Source: Bosea sp. 124
Lineage (GTDB): Bacteria; Pseudomonadota; Alphaproteobacteria; Rhizobiales; Beijerinckiaceae
Assembly: GCF_003046175.1 (NCBI RefSeq)
Contig: NZ_PZZM01000001.1
Coordinates: 2,621,001 to 2,685,000, forward strand
DNA length: 64,000 nt
Direction of reading: 5' to 3'
In this document: one piece after another, positions 787 through 19,433 of the stretch
How the letters are laid out: each line of letters starts with the position of its first letter
Numbering within the stretch: position 1 is the stretch's first letter
The notes under the pieces: generated by a model
What the model saw: only the letters and a program-made list of their open reading frames with translations
What the model was told of the DNA's origin: nothing
The model's database searches: none
Translations under genes and position numbers: made by a program

Positions 787-1563
787 TCAATCCCTGCCCG
801 CGACGTTCCAGGCGAGCGCTCTGCGCTCGGCAAGGCCGAGAATTGCGGTCGTGCCCCAGCCGAGGACGCCGACCGTCACCATCCCCACCAGGATCATGCC
901 CGGGTAGATGTCCTGCTGGGCCATGTTGAGCACGAAGCCGATGCCGGCCAGCGCTCCGACGAGCTCGGCCGCCACCAGCGTGGTCCAGGCCGCCTGCAGC
1001 GACAGGCGCAGGCCGGTGAAGATCATCGGCGAGGCGGCCGGCGCGATGATCTCGCTCGCGAGACGCCAACGCGGCGTGCCCAGCATCTGCGCGGCCTCGA
1101 TGATCGGCCGGTCGATGTTGCGAACGCCGGCGAAGGCATTGATCACCGAGGGCACGAAGGCGGCAAACCAGATCACCATGATCTTGGCGCCGTCGCCGAG
1201 GCCGAGCCAGAGGATGGCGAGCGGGATCCAGGCCAGCGGCGGGATCGGGCGGATGATCAGGAAGATCGGATTGATCGCGGCCTCGGCCCGCCGGTCCCAC
1301 CCCATCCAGAGGCCGAGCGGCACGCCGGTGGCGATCGCCACGAGGAAGCCCATCACGACCAGCTTGACGCTCTGAAGCGCGTGGCCGGCGAGCCCGCCGC
1401 CGGCATAGCCGCGCGTCGCGATCTGGCTCAACGACTGCCAGAAGTCGACAGGCGAGGGGAAGCGGCCGGGAGAGACGATGCCCGTTGCGGTCGTCAGCAT
1501 GAACCACAGCAGCAGCGCAGCCGCTACCGAGCCAAGGCTGACCCATCGCCGTCTTCCGATCAT
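787..1563 (-). CDS. ABC transporter permease, SsuC/TauC type
   Basis: This is a 258-residue inner-membrane permease with about six hydrophobic helices. It has the typical first-loop motif IVSPGRFPSPVDFW and the cytoplasmic EAA loop IIEAAQMLGTPRWRLASE. I place the start at MIGRRRWVSLG because GAGGA sits six bases upstream of that ATG. The longer frame starting at 1605 would put its first codons inside a perfect operator palindrome (1591-1604). It is the first gene of the leftward unit and is followed by a second permease after 4 bases. It is divergent from the LacI-type gene, which probably represses it. The substrate is unknown; related systems carry sulfonates, nitrate, pyrimidines or other small organics. 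Confidence 0.88.
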   Translation of the reverse strand: MIGRRRWVSLGSVAAALLLWFMLTTATGIVSPGRFPSPVDFWQSLSQIATRGYAGGGLAGHALQSVKLVVMGFLVAIATGVPLGLWMGWDRRAEAAINPIFLIIRPIPPLAWIPLAILWLGLGDGAKIMVIWFAAFVPSVINAFAGVRNIDRPIIEAAQMLGTPRWRLASEIIAPAASPMIFTGLRLSLQAAWTTLVAAELVGALAGIGFVLNMAQQDIYPGMILVGMVTVGVLGWGTTAILGLAERRALAWNVAGRD

Positions 1564-1590
1564 GGCGTTCCTCAATGCGCTCTTCTTGAG

Positions 1591-1604
1591 TGAAAGCGCT
1601 TTCA
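1591..1604. promoter_or_regulatory. LacI-family operator 1 (TGAAAGCGCTTTCA)
   Basis: This is a perfect 14-base palindrome with the central CG and AAAGC/GCTTT arms typical of LacI/GalR-family operators. It lies just upstream of the probable start of the first permease, where repressor binding would block transcription or elongation. The regulator is the divergent LacI-type gene at 1733. The site is seen in the sequence; binding is inferred. Confidence 0.72.
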
Positions 1605-1706
1605 TCGTAGGTTTTCAGATCGTGCGATGGATGTCAATCTCTCTATCGATTTGCTGATCGATGTCCATTTTCCTTGCAGATGGTGTTGTATTCGTCTTAT
1701 TTTGGA

Positions 1707-1732: not shown

Positions 1733-2746
1733 GTGAGCGGAGGGCGCGTCAAGCTGAGCGACGTTGCGCGCGATGCCGGCGTTTCGCCCGCGACCGTCTC
1801 GCGGGCGATCGCGCAGCCGGACCTGCTCTCGCCTGACACGCTGGCGAAGGTCAGGGCCAGTGCGCAGCGTCTGGGCTATCTGCCTGATGGCGCGGCGCGG
1901 GCCCTGGCCTCGGGGCGGTCGATGACGATCGGTGCGATCGTTCCGACACTGGACAGCGCCATCTTTGCGCGAGCCCTGCAAGCGATGCAGGCGACATTGG
2001 CGCAGGCGGGCTATCTGCTGCTCGTGGCCTCGCATGAAGCAAGTCCTGCAGCCGAGACGCAGGCCGTCCGGGCGCTGCTCGGCCGCGGCGTGGACGGGCT
2101 CATGCTGGTGGGGGCCGAGCGTGCGCCGGAGACGACGGCCTTGCTCGACGCGTCGGGGCTTCCTGTCGTGCTCACCTGGTGCGGCGACGGTCATTTCACC
2201 GCGATCACGATCGACAATGCCCTCGCCGGACGCCTCGCGGCGGAGCATCTGATCAGGCTCGGGCATCGGCGCATCGGCATGATCACCGGCCATCTGCAGT
2301 TCAACGACCGCCAGAGGGCCCGGCTGGCCGGCGCGCGCGCCGCCCTGACGGAAGCGGGACTGTCCTTGCCCGACCCATTGGTCGTCGAGCAGGCACTGAC
2401 CCTCGCCGGAGGGCGGGCCGGCTGCGCCATGCTGCTGGAGCTGGAGGACAAGCCGACGGCGTTGATCGGCGGCATCGACCTGTTCGCGATCGGCTGCCTC
2501 GAAGAGGCGCATGCGCGCGGCATGACGGTCCCGCGCGACCTCAGCGTCGTCGGCATCGACGGCCTGGATATGTCGGCACATGTCTCGCCCTCGCTGACGA
2601 CGGTCCATGTGCCGACGGGCCGCATCGGTCATCTCGCGGCCAGGACGTTGATGGCGCTCGTGCAGGGCGACCGAGTCGATGCCGAGACGATGCTGCCGGT
2701 GGAGCTGGTGATCAGGCGGTCGTCTCAGGCTGTCGGCGCCGTGTAG
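1733..2746 (+). CDS. LacI/PurR-family transcriptional repressor
   Basis: This is a 337-residue DNA-binding repressor, normal length for the family. The N-terminal helix-turn-helix is VKLSDVARDAGVSPATVSRAI (residues about 6-26), followed by the hinge segment GYLPDGAARALASGRS. The rest is a periplasmic-binding-protein-like effector domain, with the late conserved DLSVVGIDGL segment. It starts with GTG after a strong GGGAGG site. In the usual N-D-x-x-A-x-G motif of the effector domain the Asn is replaced (GIDLFAIG). It is divergent from the ABC permease pair and, with the two palindromes in the gap, is most likely their local regulator. The effector is unknown. Confidence 0.93.
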   Translation: MSGGRVKLSDVARDAGVSPATVSRAIAQPDLLSPDTLAKVRASAQRLGYLPDGAARALASGRSMTIGAIVPTLDSAIFARALQAMQATLAQAGYLLLVASHEASPAAETQAVRALLGRGVDGLMLVGAERAPETTALLDASGLPVVLTWCGDGHFTAITIDNALAGRLAAEHLIRLGHRRIGMITGHLQFNDRQRARLAGARAALTEAGLSLPDPLVVEQALTLAGGRAGCAMLLELEDKPTALIGGIDLFAIGCLEEAHARGMTVPRDLSVVGIDGLDMSAHVSPSLTTVHVPTGRIGHLAARTLMALVQGDRVDAETMLPVELVIRRSSQAVGAV

Positions 2747-2985: not shown

Positions 2986-3014
2986 TTGACATCGCCGCGA
3001 GCGCGCCGTCATGC
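2986..3014 (+). promoter_or_regulatory. Candidate sigma-70 promoter for the riboswitch operon
   Basis: A consensus -35 TTGACA at 2986-2991 is followed after 17 bases by the weak -10 TCATGC at 3009-3014. Transcription would begin near 3020, exactly where the aptamer begins. The -35 is convincing and the -10 is poor, so this is a moderate call. I see no gene in 2747-2985. Confidence 0.45.
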
Positions 3015-3020
3015 TTCCGG

Positions 3021-3136
3021 CTGTTCCCAGGGGGGCCTCGCTAGGAGGCTGAGATTCCGCCGGTCCGGATCAATCCGGGCAACGCGGTGACCCTCCGAAC
3101 CTGATCCGGTTCATACCGGCGTAGGGATGCGGGACA
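3021..3136 (+). promoter_or_regulatory. TPP (THI-box) riboswitch aptamer
   Basis: The segment carries the conserved THI-box blocks in order: GGGGGGCC then AGGAGGCTGAGAT at 3044-3056, GTGACCCT at 3087-3094, GAACCTGATCCGGTT at 3098-3112, and ATACCGGCGTAGGGA at 3113-3127. The CTGAGA block and the CCTGATC..GCGTAGGGA block are the universally conserved pyrimidine- and pyrophosphate-sensing parts of the TPP riboswitch. An extra hairpin CCGGAT-CA-ATCCGG (3065-3078) sits where the variable P3a arm occurs. P1 can close between GTTCCC (3023-3027) and GGGAC (3131-3135). It points at the LuxE-like gene at 3194 and should repress the downstream operon when TPP is abundant. Confidence 0.93.
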
Positions 3137-3138
3137 TC

Positions 3139-3155
3139 GGGCGGAAAGCCGCCCC
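3139..3155 (+). promoter_or_regulatory. GC-rich hairpin after the TPP aptamer (expression platform)
   Basis: GGGCGG-AAAG-CCGCCC forms a six-pair all-GC hairpin immediately after the aptamer and is followed by GTTTC. It lacks a long T run, so it could be a weak or Rho-assisted terminator or part of a start-site sequestering fold. It is most likely the switch's expression platform. Confidence 0.5.
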
Positions 3156-3193
3156 GTTTCCAAGCTCGCGCCGCTGGTCGGATTTTCGGTCCC

Positions 3194-4324
3194 ATGCAAG
3201 GCATCCCGCCTGGTCGTGTGGCTGGCGGGAAGGCGTGGCTGGACGTGACCGAAGCTGAGATCATCGAGGCCCTGCTGGCCTTCATCGACCGGGACGAGGC
3301 ATCCGAAGCCGCGTTCGAGCGGATGGCGCTGGCGGTCTTCGCCTATCAGTTCGCGCATAACCAGCCCTATCGCCGCTTCGCCATCCAGCGCGGCCGCACC
3401 ACGCTGACCGTCCGGAACTGGCGCGATATTCCCGCCGTGCCGATCACCGCCTTCAAGGACCTGACGCTGAGCTGTTGCCCGCCGGAGGCGGCAGAACGCA
3501 TCTTCATGACCAGCGGTACCACGCAGGGCGGGGTCAAGGGCCGCAGCTACCATCCGACGCTCTCCGTCTATGACCGCTCGATGCTGGTGAATTTCCGCCA
3601 GCGCTTCATGCAGGGTCTCGCGCGGATCGAGATGGGCATCCTGTTTCCCGACGAGCAGGCGATGCCGAACTCGTCGCTGGCGCATTATCTTTCGCTGGCG
3701 AAGCGCGACTGCGGAGCCCCCGGTAGCGCGGGATTCATCGGGGCGGACGGTCTCGATCTGCCGCGGCTGACCGCGGCGCTGGAACGGGCGGAAGCTGCCG
3801 GCCAGCCCTACGCGCTGCTCGGCGCGAGCTACAGCTTCGTGCACCTGCTCGATGCGCTGGCGGCACAGGGGCGGCGCTTCGTGTTGCCCGAGGGCAGCCG
3901 CATCCTCGACACCGGCGGCTTCAAAGGCCAGTCGCGCGAGATGGGTGCCGATGCCTTCTACGATGCGCTCTCAGCCGTGCTCGGCGTGCCGCGCAGCCGC
4001 TGCATCAATATGTATGGGATGACCGAGCTCAGCACGCAGTTCTACGACGACGGCAATGCCGCCTGCCCGCCGGTCAAGTCCGGGCCGCACTGGATCCGCA
4101 GCCGGGTTGTCGACCCGGTGACGGGGCGAGACCTGCCGGAAGGCACGACCGGCGTGCTGGTGCATCACGACCTCGCCCATTTCAACTGCGTCTCGGCAAT
4201 CCTGACCGAGGATGCCGGCGTCATGGTCGAGGGCGGCTTCAGGCTGTTCGGTCGGGTCGACGGCGCCGATTCCAGAGGATGCTCGCTCGCCGTCGAGGAA
4301 TTCCTGAAGGCGGCGAGGGGCTGA
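3194..4324 (+). CDS. LuxE-like acyl-protein synthetase (carboxylate-activating)
   Basis: This is a 376-residue member of the LuxE/acyl-protein synthetase family. Those enzymes activate a carboxylate with ATP to an acyl-AMP, load it on their own cysteine and pass it to a LuxC-type reductase. The Ser/Thr/Gly ATP loop (MTSGTTQGGVKGRS) and the adenylate motif (NMYGMTELSTQFY) are present. The C-terminal RGCSL motif holds Cys363, placed as in Vibrio LuxE (Cys364). No luxAB or luxD is nearby, so bioluminescence is not implied. It is the first gene after a TPP riboswitch and is 4 bases from the LuxC-like gene. The natural acid is unknown; an oxidised thiamine fragment is an inference from context. 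In-frame GTG codons at 3218 and 3245 are alternative starts. Confidence 0.88.
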   Translation: MQGIPPGRVAGGKAWLDVTEAEIIEALLAFIDRDEASEAAFERMALAVFAYQFAHNQPYRRFAIQRGRTTLTVRNWRDIPAVPITAFKDLTLSCCPPEAAERIFMTSGTTQGGVKGRSYHPTLSVYDRSMLVNFRQRFMQGLARIEMGILFPDEQAMPNSSLAHYLSLAKRDCGAPGSAGFIGADGLDLPRLTAALERAEAAGQPYALLGASYSFVHLLDALAAQGRRFVLPEGSRILDTGGFKGQSREMGADAFYDALSAVLGVPRSRCINMYGMTELSTQFYDDGNAACPPVKSGPHWIRSRVVDPVTGRDLPEGTTGVLVHHDLAHFNCVSAILTEDAGVMVEGGFRLFGRVDGADSRGCSLAVEEFLKAARG

Positions 4325-4328
4325 GGCC

Positions 4329-5780
4329 GTGACCGAGTTCGCCGGGCACCTGCCGGGACTCTCGGCTGCGGAGGTCGAGTGGCGGGTGCTGGACTTCGCC
4401 GCCTGGGGCGAGAGCGTGCAGGTCTCCGTGCCGCTGCTGACGGAGCCGCAGGGGTGCGCTTTGGCCGCTCGCATCCGGGAGAATGCGCGGGCCTATCTGA
4501 AGACGCTGCCCGTCGCCGAGATCGTCTCAACCATCGACAAGGCCGTGGCGCGGCTGCTCGACCGCAACGATCCGTGGCGGCGCAAGGCGGAGGCGGTGCT
4601 TCCCGTCGTGACCGGCTACGACCCGGAGACGGTGCGACTCGGGCTGTCGGGCTATCTCCGGACGTTCAGGGCGCCGCAGCTCCAGCGCTTTCTCGCCGAG
4701 GATTTCGTCAATCCGGGCATTCTCGATGCATTCCAGCCGGCGGTGAAGGGCGGCTTCACAAGGGCCTATGGACCCGAGCTGCTGCTGCATGTCTGGGCCG
4801 GCAACGTGCCGGGTCTGCCGTTGTGGAGCCTGATCTCCGGTCTGCTGGTCAAGGCCGGCAGCGTCGGCAAGGTCGCGAGCGCCGAGCCGCTGCTGGCCGG
4901 CTGGTTTGCCAGGATCCTCGCGGAGATCGACCCCCGGCTGGCCGAGTGCCTGGCGATCGTCTGGTGGAAGGGCGGCGATGCGGAGAGCGAGCAGGTCTGG
5001 CTGAAGCAGGCCGACACGATCGTCGCCTTCGGCGGCAACGATGCGCTTGCGGCGATCCGGGAGCGGGCGCCGGTCACGGCGCGCTTCCTGCCGCATGGCC
5101 ACAAGATCGGCTTCGGGATGGTCTCGGCTGCGGCCCTCGACACGCGCAAGGCGGCCCCGCTCGCCCGGCTCGCTGCCCATGACGTGATGCGCTACGAGCA
5201 GCAAGGCTGCTACGCGCCGCAGATGCTCTTCATCGAACGGGGTGGGAAGGTCTCGCCGCGCGAATTCGCGGAACATGTCTCGCGCGAATTGGCGGGCTTC
5301 GCGCGGACGCATCCGCGCCGGGCGTTGTCGGTGGCGGAGGCAGCCGGCGTCGCGGCCTGGCGCAACGCCGAGGAAATGCGCGCCTTCGATGGCGGGAGCC
5401 GGACGGTGCTCGGCGATGCCGGTGATCCGTGGAGCGTCGTCCAGGTCGAAGCGGCCGAGGCGCTGGCGCCGAGCGGGTTGAACCGGACGCTCAAGATCGT
5501 CGCGGTCGACAGCCTGGATGCGGTGATGCCGCTGGTGGCCCCGTTCCGGAACTTTCTCCAGAGTGCGGCGATCGCGGCGGCGCCCGCCGAGCTGTTCCGG
5601 ATCGCCGGCCTGTTGGGCGAGGCCGGCGTGACCCGGATCTCGGCCTTCGGGCGCATGACCGCGCCGGAGGCCGGCTGGCACAATGACGGGCGCTTCAACC
5701 TGCTCGACCTCGTCACCATCACCGAGATTGAGCAATCGGCCGAGTTCGCCGCCGAAGGCTTCGCGCCCTATGCCGACTGA
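4329..5780 (+). CDS. LuxC-like acyl-CoA/acyl-enzyme reductase
   Basis: This 483-residue protein matches the LuxC acyl-CoA reductase family, a branch of the aldehyde dehydrogenase fold that reduces a thioester-bound acyl group to the aldehyde with NADPH. The probable catalytic cysteine is Cys294 in YEQQGCYAPQ, equivalent to Cys286 of Vibrio LuxC. The nucleotide-binding region holds the segment TIVAFGGNDALAAIRE. It begins with GTG four bases after the LuxE-like stop, and its last 11 bases overlap the ABC ATPase start, so expression is coupled. Together the LuxE/LuxC pair would be a two-step carboxylate-to-aldehyde reductase under TPP control. The substrate is not known. Confidence 0.88.
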   Translation: MTEFAGHLPGLSAAEVEWRVLDFAAWGESVQVSVPLLTEPQGCALAARIRENARAYLKTLPVAEIVSTIDKAVARLLDRNDPWRRKAEAVLPVVTGYDPETVRLGLSGYLRTFRAPQLQRFLAEDFVNPGILDAFQPAVKGGFTRAYGPELLLHVWAGNVPGLPLWSLISGLLVKAGSVGKVASAEPLLAGWFARILAEIDPRLAECLAIVWWKGGDAESEQVWLKQADTIVAFGGNDALAAIRERAPVTARFLPHGHKIGFGMVSAAALDTRKAAPLARLAAHDVMRYEQQGCYAPQMLFIERGGKVSPREFAEHVSRELAGFARTHPRRALSVAEAAGVAAWRNAEEMRAFDGGSRTVLGDAGDPWSVVQVEAAEALAPSGLNRTLKIVAVDSLDAVMPLVAPFRNFLQSAAIAAAPAELFRIAGLLGEAGVTRISAFGRMTAPEAGWHNDGRFNLLDLVTITEIEQSAEFAAEGFAPYAD

Positions 5781-6534
5781 ACGGCAGGGCGGGGAATTCG
5801 TCGCGATCGAGCAGGCGAGCTATGGCTATGGCGTGGAGCCGGCCATCGTCGACCGCGTCGACTGGGCGATTCCGCGCGGCGCCTTCCACTGCCTCGTCGG
5901 CCGCAGCGGCAGCGGCAAGACCACGCTGCTGAAGCTCGCCGCCGGGCTGCTGCGGCCCGATCAGGGCTCCGTGCGGATCGGCGGCGCGGCGTTGCAGGGG
6001 CCGGGCTCCCGGATCGGCTTCGTCTTTCAGCAGCCGACGCTGCTCGACTGGCTCAGCGTCCTCGATAATGTCCTGCTGCCGATCTCGCTGAAGCGCAGCC
6101 TGCGACCGCAGGACCGTGACAGCGCGCGCCGGCTGCTGGACCTGGTCGGGCTGGATGCCTATGCGCGGCGGCATCCGCCGCAACTTTCCGGCGGCCAGCA
6201 GAGCCGCGTCGCCGTCGCCCGCGCGCTGATCGCAGAGCCGGATCTGCTCCTGCTCGATGAGCCCTTCGCGGCGCTCGATGCGCTGACGCGGGAGGAGTTG
6301 CAGGACGATCTGCTGGCGCTGTGTGCGCTCAAGGCGACGACCGTGCTCTTCGTTACCCACGACATCACGGAAGCCGTCTATCTGGCCGACCGGGTCGCGA
6401 TCATGGCGGCGGGCCGGCTACATCACCAGTTGGCCATCGCTCTGCCGCGGCCTCGCGGGCGCGAGATGCGCTATGGCGAGCCTTTCAACGCGCTCTGCCG
6501 GGAGCTGCGGCTGGCCATGGACGAGGCGCCATGA
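5770..6534 (+). CDS. ABC transporter ATP-binding protein (ThiZ/SsuB type)
   Basis: This is a 254-residue cytoplasmic ATPase subunit of a NitT/TauT-class importer. Walker A is GRSGSGKTT, the signature is LSGGQQSR, Walker B is LLLLDEPF and the switch histidine lies in VLFVTHD. I chose MPTERQGG at 5770, overlapping the LuxC-like gene by 11 bases, over the in-frame ATG at 5683 because homology begins here and a GAAGG lies upstream. It overlaps the permease by ATGA. TPP riboswitch control together with a THI5-like binding protein points to uptake of a thiamine precursor (pyrimidine or thiazole moiety), as in ThiXYZ systems. Confidence 0.9.
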   Translation: MPTERQGGEFVAIEQASYGYGVEPAIVDRVDWAIPRGAFHCLVGRSGSGKTTLLKLAAGLLRPDQGSVRIGGAALQGPGSRIGFVFQQPTLLDWLSVLDNVLLPISLKRSLRPQDRDSARRLLDLVGLDAYARRHPPQLSGGQQSRVAVARALIAEPDLLLLDEPFAALDALTREELQDDLLALCALKATTVLFVTHDITEAVYLADRVAIMAAGRLHHQLAIALPRPRGREMRYGEPFNALCRELRLAMDEAP

Positions 6535-7280
6535 AGGCCCGGCTCGCCTCGGCCTTGCTGCTGGTCGTCCTGCTGTGCGGCTGGGAAGCCTGGTGCCGGC
6601 TCGGCGCCGTGCCGGCACTGATCGTGCCGGCGCCGTCCTCCGTCTTCGCGACGCTGTGGAGCGAGATTGCGAGCGGTCGGCTGTTGCCGCATCTGCGGAT
6701 CACCGCGACCGAAATGGCGCTGGGCCTTGCGCTCGGCTGCGCGGTCGGACTTGGCGTCGGCATCCTGCTGGCGGAGGCCACCTTCCTGCGGCATTTGCTG
6801 CATCCCTATATCGTCGCCAGCCAGGTCGTGCCGAAGCTCGCGCTCGGGCCGCTCTTCATCGTCTGGTTCGGCTTCGGCATGGCGCCGACCGTGGTGATCA
6901 CGGCGCTGATCTGTTTCTTCCCGCTGATGGAGAACACGTTGACGGGCCTGGCCCAGGTCGATCCGGCGCGGCGCGAGCTGTTCCGCATGCTCGGCGCCAG
7001 CCGCCTCCAGACGCTGCTGCGGCTGAAGCTGCCGAGCGCCCTGCCGGTGATCCTCGCCGGGCTTCGCGTTGCGGTGGTGCTCTCGCTGGTCGGGGCCGTG
7101 GTCGGCGAGTTCATCGGCGGCCGGGCCGGGCTCGGTGCCTCGATCATCGCGGCCCAGAGCGTGATGGATTCGAGCCTGATGTTTGCGCTCTTCATCGTGA
7201 TCACGCTGCTCGGAATGATCTTCTACCAGGCGGCGCTCCTGGCCGAGCGGCTGCTGTTGCGCCACCATCTGAAAGGATAA
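6531..7280 (+). CDS. ABC transporter permease (ThiX/SsuC type)
   Basis: This is a 249-residue inner-membrane permease. It has an N-terminal helix (ASALLLVVLLCGWEAW), the PAPSSVFATLW loop typical of this class, about five further hydrophobic segments and the EAA-like ATPase contact ELFRMLGASRLQTLLRLKLPS (two halves of the loop). The start ATG overlaps the ATPase stop. It pairs with the preceding ATPase and the following binding protein. Family assignment is firm; the thiamine-precursor substrate is inferred from the riboswitch. Confidence 0.9.
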   Translation: MKARLASALLLVVLLCGWEAWCRLGAVPALIVPAPSSVFATLWSEIASGRLLPHLRITATEMALGLALGCAVGLGVGILLAEATFLRHLLHPYIVASQVVPKLALGPLFIVWFGFGMAPTVVITALICFFPLMENTLTGLAQVDPARRELFRMLGASRLQTLLRLKLPSALPVILAGLRVAVVLSLVGAVVGEFIGGRAGLGASIIAAQSVMDSSLMFALFIVITLLGMIFYQAALLAERLLLRHHLKG

Positions 7281-7284
7281 TCCG

Positions 7285-8277
7285 ATGTTCTATGGTTCAC
7301 GTCGCAACCTGTTTGCGTTCGTCGGTGCCGCCCTGATCGGTGGGGCTGGCATCGGCGCAACCCACGCCCAGACGCTCGACAAGATGACCGTTGCCGGTTG
7401 GAGCCAGCCGATCAGCGAGATCACCAACCTGCTGGCCGAGCCCGACAAGGGCTTCTTCAAGGCGAAGGGGATCGAACTCGGTTACGTGCCCGGCACTGGC
7501 GGTGGCTCGGCGATCCAGAACATGCTGACGGGGCAGGCCGACATCGCCTTCACCGATCCCGCGGCGCTCTATCTCGCACTCGACAAAGGCGAGAAGCTGG
7601 TCGCGATCTACAACATCTATCCGCAGAACGTCTTCAATGTCGTCGCGCCGAAGGCCAAGGGCATCAAGGGGCCGGCCGATCTGAAGGGCAAGCGCATCGG
7701 CGTCTACTCCCTGTCGAGTGGCACGCGGCAGAACCTGCAGGTGCTGCTGCACCAGGTCGGACTGACGGAACAGGATGCGACCATCGAGGTCACCGGGCTG
7801 CTTAACTTCGCACCGCTGATCCAGGGCCAGGTCGATGCCACCGCTGCGACCGACACCGGCCTGCTGGTGGCGAAATCCAAGGGGCTGGCCGATTTCGACG
7901 TAATCGAGGTCAAGGACCATCTCAACCTGCCGAGCGATATCTTCGTCGTGACGGAGGCAACCTACGAGGCCAAGAAGCCGCTGCTGAAGCGCTTTCTCGA
8001 AGCCTATCGCGATAGCGCCGCCTGGATGATGGCCAAGCCCGACGAGGCGGCCAAGGTCGCGGTGACGCGAGCGATCAATGGCCGCGACGAGGCGCTCAAT
8101 CTCGAGATCATCAAGCTGCGCAACATCTCGACGGTGTCGCCGACCACCGCCGCCAAGGGGCTCGGCCATTTCGATCCCGAACTGATGCAGAAGGGCGCCG
8201 ACACTTTCTACAAGCTCGGACTGATCGGAAAACCGATCGACATCGGGCAGTTCGTGAAGTCCGACCTGATCCCTTGA
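7285..8277 (+). CDS. ABC transporter substrate-binding protein, THI5/NMT1-like (ThiY-type)
   Basis: This is a 330-residue periplasmic binding protein. The N-terminus is a signal peptide (RRNLFAFVGAALIGGAGIG, cleavage likely after THAQ). The mature part follows the NMT1/THI5-like pattern: FFKAKGIELGYV, GGGSAIQNMLTGQADIAFTD and a PADLKGKRIGV segment. Family members bind pyrimidine thiamine precursors, and also sulfonates or nitrate in sister groups. It starts 4 bases after the permease and 10 bases before the SDR. THI-box control makes a thiamine precursor the leading ligand, but no ligand can be proven from sequence. Confidence 0.88.
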   Translation: MFYGSRRNLFAFVGAALIGGAGIGATHAQTLDKMTVAGWSQPISEITNLLAEPDKGFFKAKGIELGYVPGTGGGSAIQNMLTGQADIAFTDPAALYLALDKGEKLVAIYNIYPQNVFNVVAPKAKGIKGPADLKGKRIGVYSLSSGTRQNLQVLLHQVGLTEQDATIEVTGLLNFAPLIQGQVDATAATDTGLLVAKSKGLADFDVIEVKDHLNLPSDIFVVTEATYEAKKPLLKRFLEAYRDSAAWMMAKPDEAAKVAVTRAINGRDEALNLEIIKLRNISTVSPTTAAKGLGHFDPELMQKGADTFYKLGLIGKPIDIGQFVKSDLIP

Positions 8278-8287
8278 GGCGACGCGC

Positions 8288-9055
8288 ATGAAATTCCGCG
8301 ACAGGACGATCCTTGTCACCGGCGCGAGCCGGGGCATCGGGGCTGCGCTCGCCAAGGCCTTCGCCGCCGAGGGCGGGCTGGTGATCGTGAACTACCGGCG
8401 CAGCGAGGCGGCGGCTCAGGCCGTCGTCGAAGCCTGCCGCGCGGCGGGCGGGCAGGCGCTGGCGATTGCGGCCGATGTGACCGTGGCGGATGAGGTCGAG
8501 GCGATGCTGGCGCGCATCGCCGAGGAGGCCGGTCGTCTGGATGCGGTCGTCAACAATGCGTTTGACCCCTATGTCTTCGATCCGGACAATCGGGCGCGCT
8601 TCTGGGAGACGCCGTGGTCGGCCTATCAGGCGCAGGTCGATGGCGCGCTGAAGGCGACCTACAATGTCTGCCAGGCGGCCTTGCCGCTGATGCGACAGCG
8701 GGGCAGGGGGGCGATCGTCAACATCGCGACGGATCTCGTGGCGCGGCCGAGCATCGCCTATCACGACTATACCACCGCCAAGGCCGCGCTGATCGGCTTC
8801 AGCCGCAATCTCGCGGCGGAACTCGGGCCGCTCGGCATCCGGGTCAATTGCGTCGCGCCGGGGCTGGTCTATCCGACCGATGCCAGCGGCAAGACCCGCG
8901 AGGCGGTCAAGGACATGCTGATCGCGCAGACGCCGCTCGGGCGCATCGCGACGGTGGAGGACGTGACGGGGCCGGTGCTCTTCCTCGCCTCCGACTGGAG
9001 CGGCTTCGTCACCGGCCAGACGCTGCATGTCGATGGCGGGCTGGTGATGAGCTAG
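8288..9055 (+). CDS. SDR-family oxidoreductase (FabG-like)
   Basis: This is a 255-residue short-chain dehydrogenase. The N-terminal cofactor motif is TGASRGIG, followed by VVNNAF, the catalytic YTTAK (Tyr-x-x-x-Lys) and the C-terminal GQTLHVDGG. The position usually holding the catalytic Ser, 13 residues before the Tyr, is Thr (IATDLVARPS). It is the last gene of the TPP-riboswitch operon, 10 bases after the binding protein, and its stop overlaps the convergent hydroxylase gene by 4 bases. In this setting it may reduce the aldehyde made by the LuxE/LuxC pair to an alcohol. That role is an inference; generic annotation would be 3-oxoacyl-ACP reductase-like. Confidence 0.88.
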   Translation: MKFRDRTILVTGASRGIGAALAKAFAAEGGLVIVNYRRSEAAAQAVVEACRAAGGQALAIAADVTVADEVEAMLARIAEEAGRLDAVVNNAFDPYVFDPDNRARFWETPWSAYQAQVDGALKATYNVCQAALPLMRQRGRGAIVNIATDLVARPSIAYHDYTTAKAALIGFSRNLAAELGPLGIRVNCVAPGLVYPTDASGKTREAVKDMLIAQTPLGRIATVEDVTGPVLFLASDWSGFVTGQTLHVDGGLVMS

Positions 9056-11445
9056 GATTTTTCGCTCGCCAGGTCCCTGGCCGCCCGCGCATCCCGGATC
9101 GCGCGCCAGATCCGGGCGGGCGTCGCCGGCATGTCGAGATGGGTGACGCCGAGCGGGCGCAGGGCGTCGAGGACGGCGTTCATCACGGTCTGCGGCGCGC
9201 CGATGCAGCCGGCCTGGCCCGAGCCCTTGACGCCGAGCGGGTTCGCCCTGGTCGGCACCTCGACCATTTCCAGATCGAAGAACGGGATGTCGTCAGCGCG
9301 GGGCATGGCGTAGTCCATGAAGGTCGCGCTCAGGAGCTGCCCGGAATCGGGGTCGTAGATCGCCTCCTCCAGCAGCGCCTGGCCGATGCCCTGGGCGAGC
9401 CCGCCATGCACCTGGCTCTCGGTCAGCAGCGGATTGACCAGCGTGCCGTAGTCGTCGACCGCGACATAGCGCTCCAGCGAGATGGCGCCGGTCTCGGGAT
9501 CGATCTCGACCTCTGCGACCTGCGCGCCATTCGGGAAGGTGATGATGTCGCAGACATTGTCGCCATGGCTTTCGAGGCCTGAGCCGGTGCTGTCGCGCAC
9601 ATGCCGGGCAATCGCGAACAGGTCGATCTCTCGCCCGAGCCCGTCCGATCCCGCTGCGGCCTGAAAGCGGCCCTCCCCGAAGGTGAGGTCGTCCGGCCTC
9701 ACCTGCAGCAATTGCGCCGCGACGGGCCGCGCCTTTGCGATCAAATCGTCGGCGGCCATGACCAAAGCGGTGCCGCCGAGATGCAGCGAGCGGGCGCCGC
9801 CATGGCCACCGCCGCGCGGGACGCGGACAGTGTCGCCCTGCACGAGATTGAAGGTCTCGACCGGGAGCCCGAGCCGCGCGGCTGCGACCTGGGCGAAGCT
9901 GGTCTCGTGGCCCTGGCCGTTGGACTGCGTGCCGACCGCCATGTCGATGGTGCCGTCGTTGCGCATGCGCAGCCAGGCTTCCTCATTGGGCTGGCCGCGC
10001 GAGGTCTCGAGGAAGCAGCCAATGCCGAAGCCACGCAGCTTGCCGCGCTTCTTCGCTGCCCTCCTGCGCGCCGGAAGCCCGGCGCGGTCGGCGGCGCGGA
10101 GGACCTTGTCGAGGTTTTCGGGAAAGGTGCCGCAGTCGATCGTGGTGCCGAAGGCGCTGCGATAGGGGAATGTGCGGATGAAGTTGCGCTGGCGCAGCGT
10201 GGCCGGGTCGATCCGGAGTCGATGCGCGGCGGCCTCGATCAGGCGCTCGATCAGGTAATTGGCCTCGGGCTTGCCGGCGCCGCGATAGGCGTCGATCGGC
10301 GCGGTGTTGGTGAAGACGCCGCGGACATCCATGCTCATCGCGGGGATGTCATAGAGCCCGCCCATGGCGGCAGACGGCGCGTTGGTCGAACTTCCCGGGC
10401 CGAGCGAGGAGACGTAGGCGCCGAGATTGGCGATCGTCTCGACGGCGAGCGCGAGGAAGCGGCCGCGCTTGTCGAGCGCCAGTTTCGCCGTGCTGAGATT
10501 GTCGCGACTATGGATGCCGCCGGTGAACTCCTCGATGCGCTCGGCACTCCAGCGCACGGTTGCGCCGAGCCGGCGCGCAGCCCAGAGCACCAGCGCGTGC
10601 TCGGGATAGGTCACGTTCTTCATGCCGAAGCCGCCGCCGACATCGGGGCAGGAGACCTGGATCCTGTCGAGCGGCAGGCCGAACACACCTTCCGCCAGTT
10701 CGCGGCGGATAGCGTGGACCGAGGCACCGCTGATTTCGAGATGGTAGATGCCGCTTTGCAGATCGAAGCGCCCGACGGCGATACGTGGTTCGAGGGCGGC
10801 GGCGACAATGCGGTTGTTGACCAGATCGCAGGTGACGACATGGGCCGCCTTTGCGAAGGCCTTTGCCACCGCCGCCGGATCGCCGCGCCGGAAGCGGAAG
10901 GCGAGATTGCCAGGCGCCTCCGGCCAGAGCTGCGGCGCCTGCGGACCCGGCGCGCTGGCAAGATCGGTGACGGAGGGCAGGACGTCGTAGTCGACGGCGA
11001 TCTGCTCGCAGGCCTCGCGTGCCAGCACCATGCTGTCGGCGACGACGAAGGCGACCGGATCGCCGACATGGCGGACGATGTCACGGGCCAGCGGCAGGCG
11101 CGGAGGCACGATCAGCGGCTCGACTGTCGCGACGACGATGGAGGACGGCAGAGGGCCGAGCCCGCCAAGATCGGCAGCCGTGTAGACGGCGCGCACGCCG
11201 GGCAAGGCCATGGCCGCCGTCGTATCGATCGACAGGATTCGGGCATGGGCATGGGGCGAGCGCAGCACAGCGGCGAACAGCTCGCCTTGCTGCGGCCGGT
11301 CGTCAAGATAATCGCCCTGGCCGGTGAGGAAGCGCTGGTCCTCGCGCCGGCGCAGCGAGCGCGGGTCGCTTGTCGCGGGCAGCGGCGCTGACATGTCCTC
11401 TGCGTTGGAGGCGCTTCGGGCGATCATGCCGTGATTCATCGTCAA
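9052..11445 (-). CDS. Orphan molybdopterin-binding hydroxylase large subunit (xanthine dehydrogenase / CoxL form-II family)
   Basis: This 797-residue protein is a molybdenum hydroxylase large subunit. The a/b-hammerhead domain spans roughly residues 45-160 (YLDDRPQQGELFAAVLRSPHA). The Mo-cofactor domain has CPDVGGGFGMK, the form-II AYRGAGKPE loop (not the CoxL form-I Cys loop) and NGQGHETS. At the site of the catalytic Glu (usual GVKGxGEAG) the sequence is GVKGSGQAGCIG, so Gln replaces Glu. No FAD or 2Fe-2S subunit gene is adjacent on either side. The first 17 residues look non-conserved and Met18 (MSAPLPATSDPRSL) is a possible start. The substrate is unknown and activity may be altered or lost. 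Confidence 0.9.
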   Translation of the reverse strand: MTMNHGMIARSASNAEDMSAPLPATSDPRSLRRREDQRFLTGQGDYLDDRPQQGELFAAVLRSPHAHARILSIDTTAAMALPGVRAVYTAADLGGLGPLPSSIVVATVEPLIVPPRLPLARDIVRHVGDPVAFVVADSMVLAREACEQIAVDYDVLPSVTDLASAPGPQAPQLWPEAPGNLAFRFRRGDPAAVAKAFAKAAHVVTCDLVNNRIVAAALEPRIAVGRFDLQSGIYHLEISGASVHAIRRELAEGVFGLPLDRIQVSCPDVGGGFGMKNVTYPEHALVLWAARRLGATVRWSAERIEEFTGGIHSRDNLSTAKLALDKRGRFLALAVETIANLGAYVSSLGPGSSTNAPSAAMGGLYDIPAMSMDVRGVFTNTAPIDAYRGAGKPEANYLIERLIEAAAHRLRIDPATLRQRNFIRTFPYRSAFGTTIDCGTFPENLDKVLRAADRAGLPARRRAAKKRGKLRGFGIGCFLETSRGQPNEEAWLRMRNDGTIDMAVGTQSNGQGHETSFAQVAAARLGLPVETFNLVQGDTVRVPRGGGHGGARSLHLGGTALVMAADDLIAKARPVAAQLLQVRPDDLTFGEGRFQAAAGSDGLGREIDLFAIARHVRDSTGSGLESHGDNVCDIITFPNGAQVAEVEIDPETGAISLERYVAVDDYGTLVNPLLTESQVHGGLAQGIGQALLEEAIYDPDSGQLLSATFMDYAMPRADDIPFFDLEMVEVPTRANPLGVKGSGQAGCIGAPQTVMNAVLDALRPLGVTHLDMPATPARIWRAIRDARAARDLASEKS

Positions 11446-14693: not shown

Positions 14694-15916
14694 CTCAGCG
14701 ATCCGGTCGTCTTCGGGCTGCGCAGGCCGCGCGCTGCGCTCATCGGGACGATCGCCAGCCCCTTGGCTTCGAGCGACTGGGCCCAGCGCGCAATCCGCTC
14801 GATCGAGACGGGCAGGGCGCTGGCGCTGGCGACGGCGACACCATGCTCCCGCGCCAGGGCCTCCAGATTCGCCAGTTCCTTATCGATCGCGTCCGGCCGC
14901 GCCACCGTGTCGATGACGCGGTCAACCTTCATCGCCGGAATCTGCGCGCGTAGCGCGGAGGAGGCCAGCAGGCTGCGGGCGGAGGAGCCGTCATCGACCA
15001 CCATCAGCCCACGCCCGGCGAGTTCGCGCAGGATCGGCGAGAGAGCGCTGTCGTCGGAGGTCAGCCGGCCGCCGAGAAAATTGACGATGCCGACATAGCC
15101 GGTGAAGCGGCCGAGAGCCCAATGCAGCCGGTCGATGTTTTCGGCCGATTTCGGGCCGGTCAGGAGGGTGTGGGGTCCCGGATCGTTGTCGGGATAATCG
15201 AAGGGCTCCATGGGGAGCTGCAGGAAGACCTCGTGCCCCTCGCTACGGGCGCGCTGGACCGTGCGTTCCAATTCCGCACCATAGGGGGCGAAGGCAAGAG
15301 ACACGGCGCCTGGCAGCCTGGTGACCGCGTCGGAGGTGCCGCTCTGGCTGATGCCGAGGCCGCCGACCAGGATGGCGATCCGCCCGGCGATCTTGCCGGC
15401 CGGCGGTGGGCCGGCCGGGCGGGCATAGATCTGCGCCGGTGTCGCGCCGTCGGGGCCGATCTTCGGCAGCAGGCCGTGGCGCGTCCGCTCGACCAGACGG
15501 CTGTCGGGTGCCGGGGCCAGCTTCACCGTCGCCGGGCTGTCGGGAATGGTGATGATGATGGCGCCGGGCGCTTCGGCACCGGGCCGCACGACGTTGACGC
15601 CCGATTCGGTTTCGAGCTGGCGGGCGCTCGACTGGCCGCGCGTCATCTGCGCCGTGTCCGGCTGGGATGCGCCCGGCTGGGAGGTGGCGGGGGCGGATTG
15701 CGGCGATGCCGCGCGCTTCTCGATCTGGGCGGTGGCGATCGGTTCGCCGCCATCGGGGTCGCGGCGGATGGCGACGATCAGAATGATGGAGGCCCAGGCG
15801 AGGCCGACGACGCCGGCGCAGGCGATCACAAGCCAGCGGCCCCATGGCTTGCCATGGGGCGCGGCGCGATCCTGGCCGAGCGGCCGGTTGAGCTCAGTGA
15901 GCGGCGTTCCGGCCAA
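14690..15916 (-). CDS. Divergent polysaccharide deacetylase family protein (YibQ-like)
   Basis: This 408-residue protein has a short cytoplasmic start, one membrane helix (WLVIACAGVVGLAWASIILIV, two halves) and a low-complexity Pro/Ala/Gln linker. From about residue 175 the domain of the divergent polysaccharide deacetylase family begins (RIAILVGGLGISQSGT). Motifs include LPMEPFDYPDNDPGPHTLL and the GLMVVDDGSS segment. The domain should face the periplasm, where relatives sit near envC and ctpA as here. The exact substrate is unknown. It is followed by rppH with an ATGA overlap and preceded by a 179-base gap after ctpA. Confidence 0.85.
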   Translation of the reverse strand: MAGTPLTELNRPLGQDRAAPHGKPWGRWLVIACAGVVGLAWASIILIVAIRRDPDGGEPIATAQIEKRAASPQSAPATSQPGASQPDTAQMTRGQSSARQLETESGVNVVRPGAEAPGAIIITIPDSPATVKLAPAPDSRLVERTRHGLLPKIGPDGATPAQIYARPAGPPPAGKIAGRIAILVGGLGISQSGTSDAVTRLPGAVSLAFAPYGAELERTVQRARSEGHEVFLQLPMEPFDYPDNDPGPHTLLTGPKSAENIDRLHWALGRFTGYVGIVNFLGGRLTSDDSALSPILRELAGRGLMVVDDGSSARSLLASSALRAQIPAMKVDRVIDTVARPDAIDKELANLEALAREHGVAVASASALPVSIERIARWAQSLEAKGLAIVPMSAARGLRSPKTTGSLR

Positions 15917-16095
15917 GCGAAGCCGTCCTCAAGCTTGCGAAGCGGACCCGAATCAGTCGTCCGCAATGCGAGACTTTGTCAGATTCGGATCGAATCAGAC
16001 AGCCTCTCGCTTGCCTCGTCGCCGTTTGCCACTTCGGGAAAACCGATTTCCGGTTTCTTCTGGCAAATTCCGGTCGGGGCGCGCCCGATCCGGCC

Positions 16096-17439
16096 TCAGT
16101 TCGGCTTGGGCGCCTCGGTCGAAGCGGGAGCGGCCGGCGCGGCGGCGTCCTTCTTGACGCCACGGATCTGGTTCAGCGCCGCGATCAACTGGGTGTCCTT
16201 GGTCGGATCGTTGGGGACGTAAGAAGCCGAGCCGGACTGCTCGTCCTTGCCGTCACCGGACTTCAGATGGCCCTTGAGCGAAGCCTCGCCCTTGTTCTCG
16301 GCGAGCTTGTCCTTGAGCTCCGGCGGGATCTCCTGAACGACCTCGATGTCGGGCGTGATGCCCTTGGCCTGGATCGAGGTTCCCGACGGCGTGTAGTAGC
16401 GCGCCGTGGTCAGGCGCAGGCCGCCATTGCCGGCGAGCGGGATTACGGTCTGGACCGAACCCTTGCCGAAGGAGCGCGTGCCCATCACGGTCGCGCGCTT
16501 GTGGTCCTGCAGGGCGCCGGCGACGATCTCGGCGGCCGAGGCCGACGAACCGTTGATCAGCACGACGACAGGCTTGCCCTTGGTCAGGTCGCCCGCCTTG
16601 GCGTTGAAGACCTGCGTCTCCTCGGCATTGCGGCCGCGGGTCGAGACGATCTTGCCGCGCTCGAGGAAGGCGTCGGAGACCAGCACGGACTGGTCGAGAC
16701 GGCCGCCGCGATTGTTGCGCAGGTCGATGACGTAACCCTTGATCTTATCGACGCCGATTTCGGCATTGACCTTGTCGATCCCCTTGCGCAGGCCCTCATA
16801 GGTCTGCTCGCTGAAGGTGCCGATGCGGATATAGCCGACATCCGCCTCGACGCGCTCCTCCACCGCCGGGACGACGATGGTCGTGCGCGTCAGCGTGAAC
16901 TCGAGCGGCTCGGGCTTGCCCGGGCGATCGACCTTGAGCTTGACCTGAGTGTTGATGATGCCGCGCATCTTCTCGACCGCCTGGGTCAGGGACAGGCCCT
17001 TCACCTCGGTGCCGTCGATCTGGCTGATGATGTCGTTGGCGAGGATGCCGGCCTTGAAGGCCGGCGTATCGCGGATGGGCTTGGCGACCTTGAGGACGCC
17101 GTCATCCATCGTCACCTCGATGCCGAGCCCGCCGAACTGGCCGCGCATGTCTGTATCCATGTCGCGGAACGACTTGGAATCGAGATAGGAGGAGTGCGGA
17201 TCGAGCGAGGAGACCATGCCGTTGATGGCGGCCTCGATCAGCTTCTGCTCATCGGGCTTTTCGACATAGTCGGTGCGGATCTTCTCGAAGATGTCACCGA
17301 AAAGGTTCAAGCTGCGATAAACCTCGGCCGACGCCGCGACCGCGCTGGTCGAGGTCAGCAGGCGCGTCTGCGTGACCATGCCGGTCAGGCCCGCGCCGAG
17401 GACGGCTCCGGCGAAAACGAGAGAAACCTTGCGCATCAT
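16096..17439 (-). CDS. ctpA: S41-family C-terminal processing peptidase
   Basis: This is a secreted serine protease of about 447 residues, acting in the periplasm on envelope proteins. It begins MMRKVSLVFAGAVLGAG with a signal anchor. The PDZ domain carries GGLGIEVTMDDGVLKV and SQIDGTEVKGLSL. The catalytic region carries YVIDLRNNRGGRLDQ, the serine in VLINGSSASAAEIVAGALQD and the lysine in GTRSFGKGSVQTV. I reject the longer frame from 17730: the ATG at 17437-17439 overlaps the stop of the envC-like gene (ATGA) and starts the signal sequence. The C-terminus ends in an Ala/Pro-rich tail. The envC-ctpA pair is a usual alphaproteobacterial order. Confidence 0.94.
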   Translation of the reverse strand: MMRKVSLVFAGAVLGAGLTGMVTQTRLLTSTSAVAASAEVYRSLNLFGDIFEKIRTDYVEKPDEQKLIEAAINGMVSSLDPHSSYLDSKSFRDMDTDMRGQFGGLGIEVTMDDGVLKVAKPIRDTPAFKAGILANDIISQIDGTEVKGLSLTQAVEKMRGIINTQVKLKVDRPGKPEPLEFTLTRTTIVVPAVEERVEADVGYIRIGTFSEQTYEGLRKGIDKVNAEIGVDKIKGYVIDLRNNRGGRLDQSVLVSDAFLERGKIVSTRGRNAEETQVFNAKAGDLTKGKPVVVLINGSSASAAEIVAGALQDHKRATVMGTRSFGKGSVQTVIPLAGNGGLRLTTARYYTPSGTSIQAKGITPDIEVVQEIPPELKDKLAENKGEASLKGHLKSGDGKDEQSGSASYVPNDPTKDTQLIAALNQIRGVKKDAAAPAAPASTEAPKPN

Positions 17440-18764
17440 CCGCGAACCTTTTCGCCAAGCGGTTTCGTCCACCACGGCGCCGGATCGACCGAGACACCGT
17501 CTTTTCTGAACTCGATATACAGAACCGGCTGTCCGGTTCCCGAACCCACGGTCGTCGCCGCAGCTTCCGACGTTTCGCCCATAATCGCAACCGGTTCCCC
17601 CGCGAGGACGAACTGGTTCAGCGCGACGTCGATCCGCTGCATGCCGGCAAGCAACATATAGTACCCCCCGCCGGCATTCAGGATCAAGAGTTGCCCGAAT
17701 GAGCGGAACGGCCCGGCATAAACCACCCAAGCGTCGGAAGGCGCCGAAACTAGGGCATTGGGGCGCGTCTCCAGAGAAATTCCGCGCGTTGTGCCGCCGG
17801 CGCCGTCGGAATCGCCAAAACCACGCAATTGTGAACCGGCTACGGGCAGCGGAAGCAGGCCCCGGGCCTCGGCGAAGGCGATTTTTGGGCTGAGCCGGGC
17901 CGGGTCCTTGAAGGCCAGCGCCGCCATGCGCTGGCGCTGTTCGCGAGTCTCGGCCTCCAGTGCCTGGCGTGCCGCATCCGCGGCGCGGTTGGCGACGGAG
18001 ATTTCCTTTTCCATGCGCTCGACGAAATCGCGCAGGCTGCGGGCCTGAGCCGCGAGGTCGTTGTCCTGCCGACGTTGGACCTCGGCGTCCCCGCTCGCGC
18101 TGGCTTCACGCAACTGCCTGGCCTCGACCAGCGACGCTAGACGCTGGCGCTCGACCGCGAGCTGTTCCATTTCCGCCGAGAGGGCCTTGCGCTCCTCGCC
18201 GATGCCCTCGCGGAGCCGGACGAGTTCGCCGAGATCAGTGCCGAGAACCTCGATCTCCTGGCGCAGATCCGGCACCACCGCGCCGAGCAGCATCGAGGCC
18301 CGCACCGCTTCGAGGATGTCCTCAGGGCGCACCAGCACGGCCGGCGGCGGGCGCCGGCCGATGCGCTGGAGCGCGGCCAGGACCTCGGCGATCAGGCCGC
18401 GCCGGCCTTCCAGCGAACGACGGATCGCGGCCTCGCTCGATTGCAGAAGCGCGAGGCGGCGTTCGAGCGCGCTGACACGCTGTTCGGCGCCTTGCGTCCG
18501 GGCGGTCGTGTTGAGCAGGGCCTTGTTGAGGGCAGCGCGGTCGGCCCGGATCGAGGCGATCTCGGCCTCGAGCTTCGCGCGTGCCTCGGCATTGCCGGCG
18601 AGCCGCTGCTCGATCGCCTTCAACTCGGCCTCGCGGACCTGCTTCTCGACGAGCTTCTGCATCGCCTCGCGGGAGAGGGCGTCGGGATCGGGAATCTGGG
18701 GCTGGGCGGCGGCGGGCGATCCCATGCCCATCAAGACGGCAAACGCCAGCAAGCACGCGCGCAC
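17436..18764 (-). CDS. EnvC-like murein hydrolase activator (M23/LytM domain)
   Basis: This is an exported protein of about 442 residues that should act at the periplasmic face of the divisome or cell wall. After a signal sequence (AFAVLMGMGSPAAAQ) comes a long coiled coil of heptad-rich charged helices (about residues 25-260). A C-terminal LytM-type domain follows (VVYAGPFRSFGQLLILNAGGGYYMLL in parts). The metal-binding His positions of active LytM enzymes are missing, so it is probably an activator of an amidase, as EnvC is. I take the GTG at 18762-18764 as start. The longer frame to 18941 would translate an inverted-repeat element with no homology. It overlaps ctpA by ATGA. Confidence 0.88.
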   Translation of the reverse strand: MRACLLAFAVLMGMGSPAAAQPQIPDPDALSREAMQKLVEKQVREAELKAIEQRLAGNAEARAKLEAEIASIRADRAALNKALLNTTARTQGAEQRVSALERRLALLQSSEAAIRRSLEGRRGLIAEVLAALQRIGRRPPPAVLVRPEDILEAVRASMLLGAVVPDLRQEIEVLGTDLGELVRLREGIGEERKALSAEMEQLAVERQRLASLVEARQLREASASGDAEVQRRQDNDLAAQARSLRDFVERMEKEISVANRAADAARQALEAETREQRQRMAALAFKDPARLSPKIAFAEARGLLPLPVAGSQLRGFGDSDGAGGTTRGISLETRPNALVSAPSDAWVVYAGPFRSFGQLLILNAGGGYYMLLAGMQRIDVALNQFVLAGEPVAIMGETSEAAATTVGSGTGQPVLYIEFRKDGVSVDPAPWWTKPLGEKVRG

Positions 18765-18896
18765 TCCCTCCCCCCGCTTGCAGTGGGGAGGGCTAGGGTG
18801 GGGGGCAGTGCTGCTCGGCGCGACGATCGAAGACAGAGCTGTGGCTTTCCAACCCCCCATCCCTAGCCCTTCCCCACCGCAAGCGGGGGGAAGAGG
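18765..18896. repeat. Inverted repeat element with about 36-base arms upstream of the envC-like gene
   Basis: One arm runs 18765-18806 and its inverted copy runs 18851-18896, separated by about 44 bases. Each arm itself contains CCCCCCGCTTGC..GTGGGGA.GGGCTAGGG and can fold back. The arms differ at only a few positions. The element abuts the probable GTG start of the envC-like gene, so its G-rich strand supplies the purine stretch just before that start. Repeats of this design are dispersed in rhizobial genomes; this placement may come from insertion. Confidence 0.75.
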
Positions 18897-18937
18897 ACAA
18901 GGCGCGGCATCAGGGCGAATCAGGGGCCGGAAAAGGC

Positions 18938-19417
18938 TCATGCGCGATGATAGGGGTGTCCGGTCAGGATCGTCATCGTCCGGTAGAGTTGTTCGAGAAC
19001 CAGGACCCGAACCAGTTGATGCGGGATGGTCAGCGCACCGAAGGCGAGAGTCAGCCCGGCGGCATCGCGGATCTCGTCGGCGAGGCCATCGGCACCGCCG
19101 ATGACGAAGCTGGCGGAGGCCGTTCCGGCATCACGCGCCTCGGCGATGCGTGCGGCGAAGGCGTCGCTGGCCTGGCTCCTGCCGCGTTCATCGAGCGCGA
19201 TCACCAGCCCGGGCGACAGCCGCGCGGTGATCGCGGCGGCTTCGTCGCGCTTGCGTTCGTCTGGCCGGCGGCCGCGGCTTTCAGGAAGTTCGACGATCTC
19301 CGGCCCGGCCAGGCCCAGTCCGCGCCCCAGCGTGGCGGCGCGCTCGCGGTAGCGCTCGCAGAGTTCGCGTTCCGGCCCGTCCTTGAGACGGCCGACGGCG
19401 ATCAGGGCGAGGCGCAT
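18938..19417 (-). CDS. rlmH: 23S rRNA pseudouridine-1915 N3-methyltransferase
   Basis: This is a SPOUT-class methyltransferase acting on helix 69 of the 50S subunit in 70S ribosomes. At 159 residues it is the usual length. It begins MRLALIAVGRLKDGPE, and the SAM-knot region carries VIALDERG, FVIGGADGL and the C-terminal RVLVLEQLYRTMTILTGHPYHRA in parts, all diagnostic of RlmH. It lies 16 bases downstream of rsfS on the minus strand, the common rsfS-rlmH pairing. Confidence 0.97.
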   Translation of the reverse strand: MRLALIAVGRLKDGPERELCERYRERAATLGRGLGLAGPEIVELPESRGRRPDERKRDEAAAITARLSPGLVIALDERGRSQASDAFAARIAEARDAGTASASFVIGGADGLADEIRDAAGLTLAFGALTIPHQLVRVLVLEQLYRTMTILTGHPYHRA

Positions 19418-19433
19418 CCCGCGTGTCCGGCCG

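Follow-up and report, generated by a model that had tools for sequence, protein, structure and literature searches.

Why would a protein pair resembling the fatty acid reductase of luminous bacteria stand under the control of a thiamine pyrophosphate (TPP) riboswitch? The question is raised by a 64,000-nucleotide stretch of Bosea sp. 124 DNA (contig NZ_PZZM01000001.1, positions 2,621,001 to 2,685,000 of the forward strand; hereafter the window), in which a six-gene operon spanning 3194-9055 lies directly 3' of a TPP aptamer. The operon encodes a LuxE-like and a LuxC-like protein, an ATP-binding cassette (ABC) importer and a short-chain dehydrogenase/reductase (SDR). We propose, with a probability of roughly 0.55, that it is a TPP-repressed salvage route in which LuxE, LuxC and the SDR would convert 4-amino-2-methylpyrimidine-5-carboxylate to hydroxymethylpyrimidine (HMP). 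TPP repression is inferred from the riboswitch family, and both direction and chemistry from the families of the enzymes; a gene census and a model of the binding protein favour this particular acid. An earlier interpretation of the bare DNA (the sequence-only reading) had suggested that an oxidised thiamine fragment is imported and reduced to the alcohol; comparative genomics well beyond the window supports this idea; the chemistry and the acid itself are predictions.

The riboswitch and the constant core of the operon

The sequence-only reading had placed a THI-box at 3021-3136, followed by LuxE, LuxC, ATPase, permease, THI5/NMT1-like and SDR genes with gaps of 10 bases or less, several overlaps, and no luxAB or luxD. 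All of this holds. The Rfam covariance model RF00059 matches the leader above its gathering cut-off (Table 1), so that the possibility of there being no THI-box can be set aside, and Pfam matches return the same gene order. Adjacent genes share as many as 11 bases or are separated by 10 at most, and luxA, luxB and luxD were not found among the nine proteins scanned (six from the operon and three flanking it). The NitT/TauT-type importer set is complete, with ATPase, permease and NMT1-type binding protein all scoring over their cut-offs.

To see how widely this arrangement is shared, we assembled 48 loci, all by protein similarity. Besides the window, these comprise 26 loci from one search of GTDB species genomes for close relatives of the window LuxC, with no selection for riboswitches; 3 from Bacillota and 6 from the order of genome G149 (7 of 73 genomes matched), both found with a LuxE alignment; 5 from a LuxE-alignment search of Pseudomonadota (at E 1e-60, 6 of 398 genomes had a match, counting that of the window); and 7 plasmid loci, opened among 27 matching plasmid records. 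A TPP model match lies upstream of the first gene in all 47 loci tested, over the cut-off in 42 and at 42.2 to 54.1 bits in L021, L086, L087, L088 and L092; for 13 loci the riboswitch position came from a whole-genome search and was converted to locus coordinates by arithmetic. The other locus, L089, was assessed from the core motif only, which is present upstream.

Riboswitch or core motif is followed by LuxE and LuxC at 48 of 48 loci, decayed in L084 and in broken frames in L093. The SDR is present in 47 and is kept where the ABC genes are absent. LuxE, LuxC and the SDR are the constant core of the operon and the transporters vary: 34 loci have an ABC binding protein, 5 an NCS2 nucleobase permease (assigned by Pfam in four and by an identical protein accession in the fifth), and 9 have neither. 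The hosts span Proteobacteria and Bacillota, and the operon also resides on plasmids of Pantoea, Azospirillum, Priestia, Pseudomonas, Niallia, Levilactobacillus (21 kb) and Lactiplantibacillus, the last as small as 10 kb. In our estimate the odds are somewhat better than even that a TPP-controlled LuxE-LuxC-SDR salvage from the 5-carboxylic acid to HMP exists in at least two phyla and on small plasmids of lactic acid bacteria. The Niallia locus L094 displays a tandem pair of TPP riboswitches ahead of one operon (6763-7059).

TPP control and linkage to thi genes across genomes, which together mark thiamine-precursor salvage, are both found here, the thi neighbours at some loci only: thiD, thiM, thiE, thiG/thiH/thiF, a ThiN fusion and thiW stand beside several. 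Finding LuxE/LuxC pairs mainly away from thiamine genes would have spoken against the sequence-only reading; for this clade the opposite holds, with TPP riboswitches at 47 loci and the core motif at one. L084 (134-2953, minus strand) has a TPP riboswitch, the decayed LuxE and LuxC, and then intact-looking ThiD and ThiE; it is the sole locus devoid of the SDR, and loss of the pathway is likely there. Among 7996 candidates scored in a profile search that disregarded riboswitch linkage, at least 1221 LuxE homologues reached E 1e-30. No TPP riboswitch was found at the 6 loci scanned, with longer flanks, of 18 with weaker LuxE matches, and phage records gave no tblastn match to the window LuxE at E 1e-10.

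A LuxE tree was built from 59 of 73 rows, leaving out near-copies, same-locus duplicates, fragments and two broken copies. The 43 riboswitch-linked rows fall on one side of a branch with 100/100 support and 16 other Bacillota rows on the opposite side, in a tree that holds no luminous-bacterium LuxE and for which the program warned of long branches meeting and of four rows with unusual composition. Within this tree, the rows nearest to the window LuxE come from Bosea and from a Rhizobiales record. Pantoea rows nest among those of Bosea (99/97), which, together with the presence of the genes on plasmids, makes horizontal transfer of the operon likely.

Table 1. Features of the riboswitch-led operon in the window (positions counted from the first nucleotide of the window).
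Feature	Position	Strand	Basis
TPP riboswitch aptamer (RF00059)	3019-3147	+	cmscan 65.7 bits, cut-off 54.3, E 1.1e-10
G+C-rich hairpin	3139-3154	+	fold of 3130-3215; overlaps the 3' end of the aptamer match, upstream of LuxE
LuxE-like acyl-protein synthetase, predicted carboxylate-activating subunit	3194-4324	+	PF04443, 67.7 bits, cut-off 24.9
LuxC-like acyl-protein/acyl-CoA reductase, predicted to form the aldehyde from the acyl group	4329-5780	+	PF05893, 285 bits, cut-off 21
ABC importer ATPase	5770-6534	+	PF00005 over cut-off; start inferred, ATG 5770
ABC importer permease	6531-7280	+	PF00528 over cut-off; ATGA overlap with ATPase gene, start inferred
ABC substrate-binding protein, NMT1/THI5 family	7285-8277	+	PF09084, 157 bits
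SDR oxidoreductase, predicted aldehyde-to-alcohol step	8288-9055	+	PF13561/PF00106

Which acid would be reduced

In the proposed route, low TPP would permit expression of the operon, and the ABC importer would take up 4-amino-2-methylpyrimidine-5-carboxylate ('HMP acid'), a known thiamine breakdown product. LuxE would adenylate the carboxylate and bind the acyl group to Cys363 as a thioester; the group would pass to Cys294 of LuxC and be reduced with NAD(P)H to the aldehyde, which the SDR would convert to the alcohol HMP. ThiD would then phosphorylate HMP twice, and ThiE would couple the product to the thiazole. The sequence-only reading did not choose between pyrimidine and thiazole. Because of the gene census and the binding-protein model, we favour the pyrimidine over the other fragments, with thiamine acetic acid and the thiazole following about equally.

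The thiamine pathway has three alcohols, HMP, hydroxyethylthiazole and thiamine, each with its own kinase. We searched 40 operon-bearing genomes for these kinases. The HMP kinase ThiD is present in 40/40 (39 over the cut-off), the hydroxyethylthiazole kinase ThiM in 21/40 (8 of the 21 matches being two partial matches within one reading frame), and thiamine pyrophosphokinase in 11/40, all of them Bacillota; 18 genomes have neither of the latter two. Among the 29 non-Bacillota genomes the counts are 29 for ThiD, 11 for ThiM and 0 for pyrophosphokinase.

As for synthesis of the two halves, ThiC was found in 32/40 genomes, full-length ThiG in 35/40 and both in 31/40. ThiG is present and ThiC was not found in G014, G021, G025 and G449; neither was found in G024, G149, G445 and G458; and G003 alone has ThiC with no ThiG found. 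Both G003 and G025 are metagenome-assembled genomes (MAGs) with a LuxC that shares 75-85% identity with that of the window, as do Bosea genomes in which ThiC and ThiG are both present; for this reason we gave most weight to G014 and G021 (MAGs too) and G449. In each of G430, G436 and G442 a further two ThiC-like genes stand side by side; tandem pairs of this kind may be BzaA/BzaB of benzimidazole synthesis.

The binding protein was modelled with a 14-sequence alignment (mean predicted local distance difference test score, pLDDT, 86.7). By Z score the model is closest to the formylaminopyrimidine-binding 3ix1 (33.3), followed by the thiamin-bound 4nmy (31.2), 3qsl from Bordetella (28.6), Thi5 HMP synthases (28.6 at most) and SsuA (27.3).

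Several observations weigh against the pyrimidine acid, among them the ThiM and ThiW neighbours described below. The universality of ThiD is weak on its own, since de novo synthesis needs ThiD too. The kinase census discriminates outside Bacillota only, because the 11 Bacillota genomes all have pyrophosphokinase and 10 of them ThiM. Most genomes (31/40) need no salvage, having both ThiC and ThiG; in G442 a thiG cluster follows the operon, yet ThiC is present. At least 3 of the 4 ThiC-less, ThiG-bearing genomes are MAGs whose completeness is not stated. The binding protein is ambiguous as well: ordered by Foldseek E-value, 4nmy comes first and 3ix1 second, and by sequence profile the uncharacterised 3qsl leads (68.5 bits), followed by 4nmy (54.5), with Thi5 and 3ix1 near 35. 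Finally, we know of no FabG-like SDR that serves as a dedicated alcohol-forming aldehyde reductase.

Could the whole vitamin be the cargo instead? Thiamine acetic acid, in which the side-chain alcohol is oxidised, would then be imported and reduced back to thiamine. We consider this alternative, which the sequence-only reading did not list, unlikely, if the best placed of those we weighed. The rank of thiamin-bound 4nmy (first by Foldseek, second by Z) and the pyrophosphokinase of every Bacillota genome are consistent with it, and it would serve the four genomes in which neither ThiC nor ThiG was found. However, only 11/40 genomes have pyrophosphokinase, which leaves most without that known way of turning free thiamine into TPP, although other thiamine kinases (e.g., ThiK, not searched for) could exist, and an NCS2 nucleobase permease seems an improbable carrier of a thiazolium compound.

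Hardly different in probability is the thiazole branch, in which 4-methylthiazole-5-acetic acid would be imported and reduced to hydroxyethylthiazole for phosphorylation by ThiM. ThiM is the next gene after the SDR in L021 (Ammoniphilus); in L058 a ThiL/ThiN fusion follows the SDR, and ThiD-ThiM-ThiE lie with a divergent riboswitch; ThiM, ThiE and ThiD lie upstream of the operon in L081; and in L020 another riboswitch precedes ThiM, both at least about 4.6 kb downstream of the SDR. In Niallia (L094) the two riboswitches precede ThiW, which is predicted to carry thiazole, and then an NCS2 permease, LuxE, LuxC and the SDR. Against this, ThiM over the cut-off is missing from 19/40 genomes, among them 4 of the 6 with a completeness rating of 100%, and we therefore disfavour the thiazole acid. 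Given full-length ThiG in 35/40, the thiazole is rarely the missing half; in L082 the order NCS2 permease-LuxE-LuxC-SDR is followed after 454 bases by ThiG, a radical SAM/BATS protein (ThiH-like) and ThiF. Nucleobase permeases and a binding protein resembling pyrimidine and thiamin binders would also be odd for a thiazole.

Comparison with bioluminescence and known salvage systems

In luminous bacteria, LuxE and LuxC turn fatty acids into aldehydes by adenylation, thioester transfer and NADPH-dependent reduction. Like the LuxC-LuxE complex in PDB 7xc6, presumably that of Photobacterium phosphoreum, the window operon pairs LuxE with LuxC, and in profile alignments both nucleophilic cysteines coincide: Cys363 of LuxE with the cysteine in 'kGCSL', a stretch common to both proteins compared, and Cys294 of LuxC with that in 'ydqqaCfs'. 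Both are invariant in 16-sequence alignments of the respective proteins, as is SGTT at 107-110 of LuxE, in agreement with the sequence-only reading that these residues are retained. There are differences as well. The window pair comes with a TPP riboswitch, an importer and an SDR, and the luxA, luxB and luxD genes of a bioluminescence lux operon are lacking among the nine proteins scanned. LuxE scores 67.2 bits against the bioluminescence equivalog NF052244 (cut-off 550) and LuxC 80.1 bits against NF052251 (cut-off 750), far too low for membership of either, and the expected substrate is a small heterocyclic acid.

This comparison bears on another possibility, that the product is unrelated to thiamine precursors, being made for example from a fatty or an aromatic acid, and that TPP control is mere co-regulation. 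The fatty acid chemistry of luminous bacteria would fit, as would public annotation, which labels this LuxE 'long-chain fatty acid-CoA ligase' and often gives its protein group that name or 'acyl-CoA reductase'. Nevertheless, a TPP switch or its core motif at all 48 loci, across phyla, the thi genes and thiamine-precursor transporters that neighbour the operon, and the low equivalog scores make this a slightly poorer prospect than the thiazole or the whole vitamin. A pure fatty-acid role was rejected as the leading interpretation on account of the constant TPP switch and these scores.

The carboxythiazole vitamer cHET (2-carboxylated hydroxyethylthiazole), a thiazole carboxylic acid that figures as a thiamin vitamer in an excerpt of marine work (PMC10470507), is very improbable as substrate, and we rejected it on chemistry: reduction of the ring carboxyl would yield a 2-hydroxymethyl thiazole, no thiamine precursor, and the decarboxylation needed would not be a known LuxE/LuxC activity.

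The predicted conversion of free acid to aldehyde at the expense of ATP and NADPH resembles that of carboxylic acid reductases (CAR). Unlike the two separate proteins of the window, which belong to other families, CAR combines several domains and a phosphopantetheine arm in a single protein. We know of no B1 salvage pathway that combines a LuxE-LuxC carboxylate reductase with an SDR; to our knowledge, the known reuse of broken thiamine handles hydrolysed or base-degraded pieces. In contrast to the ThiY-type pyrimidine importer, which works with YlmB and TenA in hydrolysing an aminopyrimidine, the window operon has no YlmB or TenA among its genes and would reduce a carboxylic acid.

The thiXYZ importer is predicted to carry HMP. 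A metagenome riboswitch survey places thiXYZ, under TPP regulation, among the ABC transporters of the nitrate/sulfonate/bicarbonate family (PMC2211319), and a comparative study of TPP regulons mentions it once (PMC3766115). The window importer belongs, on that description, to the same transporter superfamily and shares the TPP control, but is tied to LuxE, LuxC and an SDR. In the main text, the regulon study has neither 'LuxE' nor 'LuxC' (PMC3766115) and the survey no word starting with 'lux' (PMC2211319). From the nucleobase side, an excerpted report implicates the plant transporter PLUTO, found via bacterial gene clustering, in HMP transport (PMC5874261). We found no description of a TPP riboswitch combined with LuxE/LuxC in the open-licence PubMed Central literature, and one may be in print elsewhere.

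If the pyrimidine reading is right, oxidised vitamin fragments would be a nutrient currency, and the 'bioluminescence' reductase pair would have a second, widespread role in cofactor recycling. It is tempting to speculate that such a reductive route adds a source of B1 in soils, plants, fermented foods and water, and that it explains the supply of HMP in some ThiC-less organisms. It would also give a function to proteins often annotated as fatty acid-CoA ligases or acyl-CoA reductases.

Leader, gene boundaries and neighbouring genes

The hairpin that overlaps the 3' end of the aptamer match could be part of the expression platform, and the fold energy of 3130-3215 is no better than that of shuffled sequences (z 0.29). 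The start codons of the LuxE, ATPase and permease genes are our choice; LuxE may begin at ATG 3194 or alternatively at GTG 3245, near which many relatives begin. The gene for another NitT/TauT-type ABC permease is found upstream of one for a LacI-family regulator (787-1605, minus strand, and 1733-2746, plus strand); the profiles nearest to this permease are TauC and SaoP, below their cut-offs, and no thiamine link was seen. At the other end, the SDR gene is met by a convergent gene for a molybdenum hydroxylase large subunit of the CO/xanthine dehydrogenase family (9052-11445, minus strand); the two overlap by 4 bases. The source genome (5.47 Mb in a single contig) contains three TPP riboswitches.

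Elsewhere, two alphaproteobacterial MAGs encode a protein of about 175 amino acids in a 4-base overlap with the SDR gene (L018, 12375-12908; L025, 14717-15241); it has a hydrophobic N-terminus and several cysteines, and no Pfam match. In L028, a TPP riboswitch followed by a branched-chain-type ABC importer (Peripla_BP_6, BPD_transp_2 and ABC_tran; 15180-19574, minus strand) lies beside the LuxE operon. Since ThiC, full-length ThiG, ThiM and thiamine pyrophosphokinase were not found in this genome (G024), that importer may carry another thiamine precursor.

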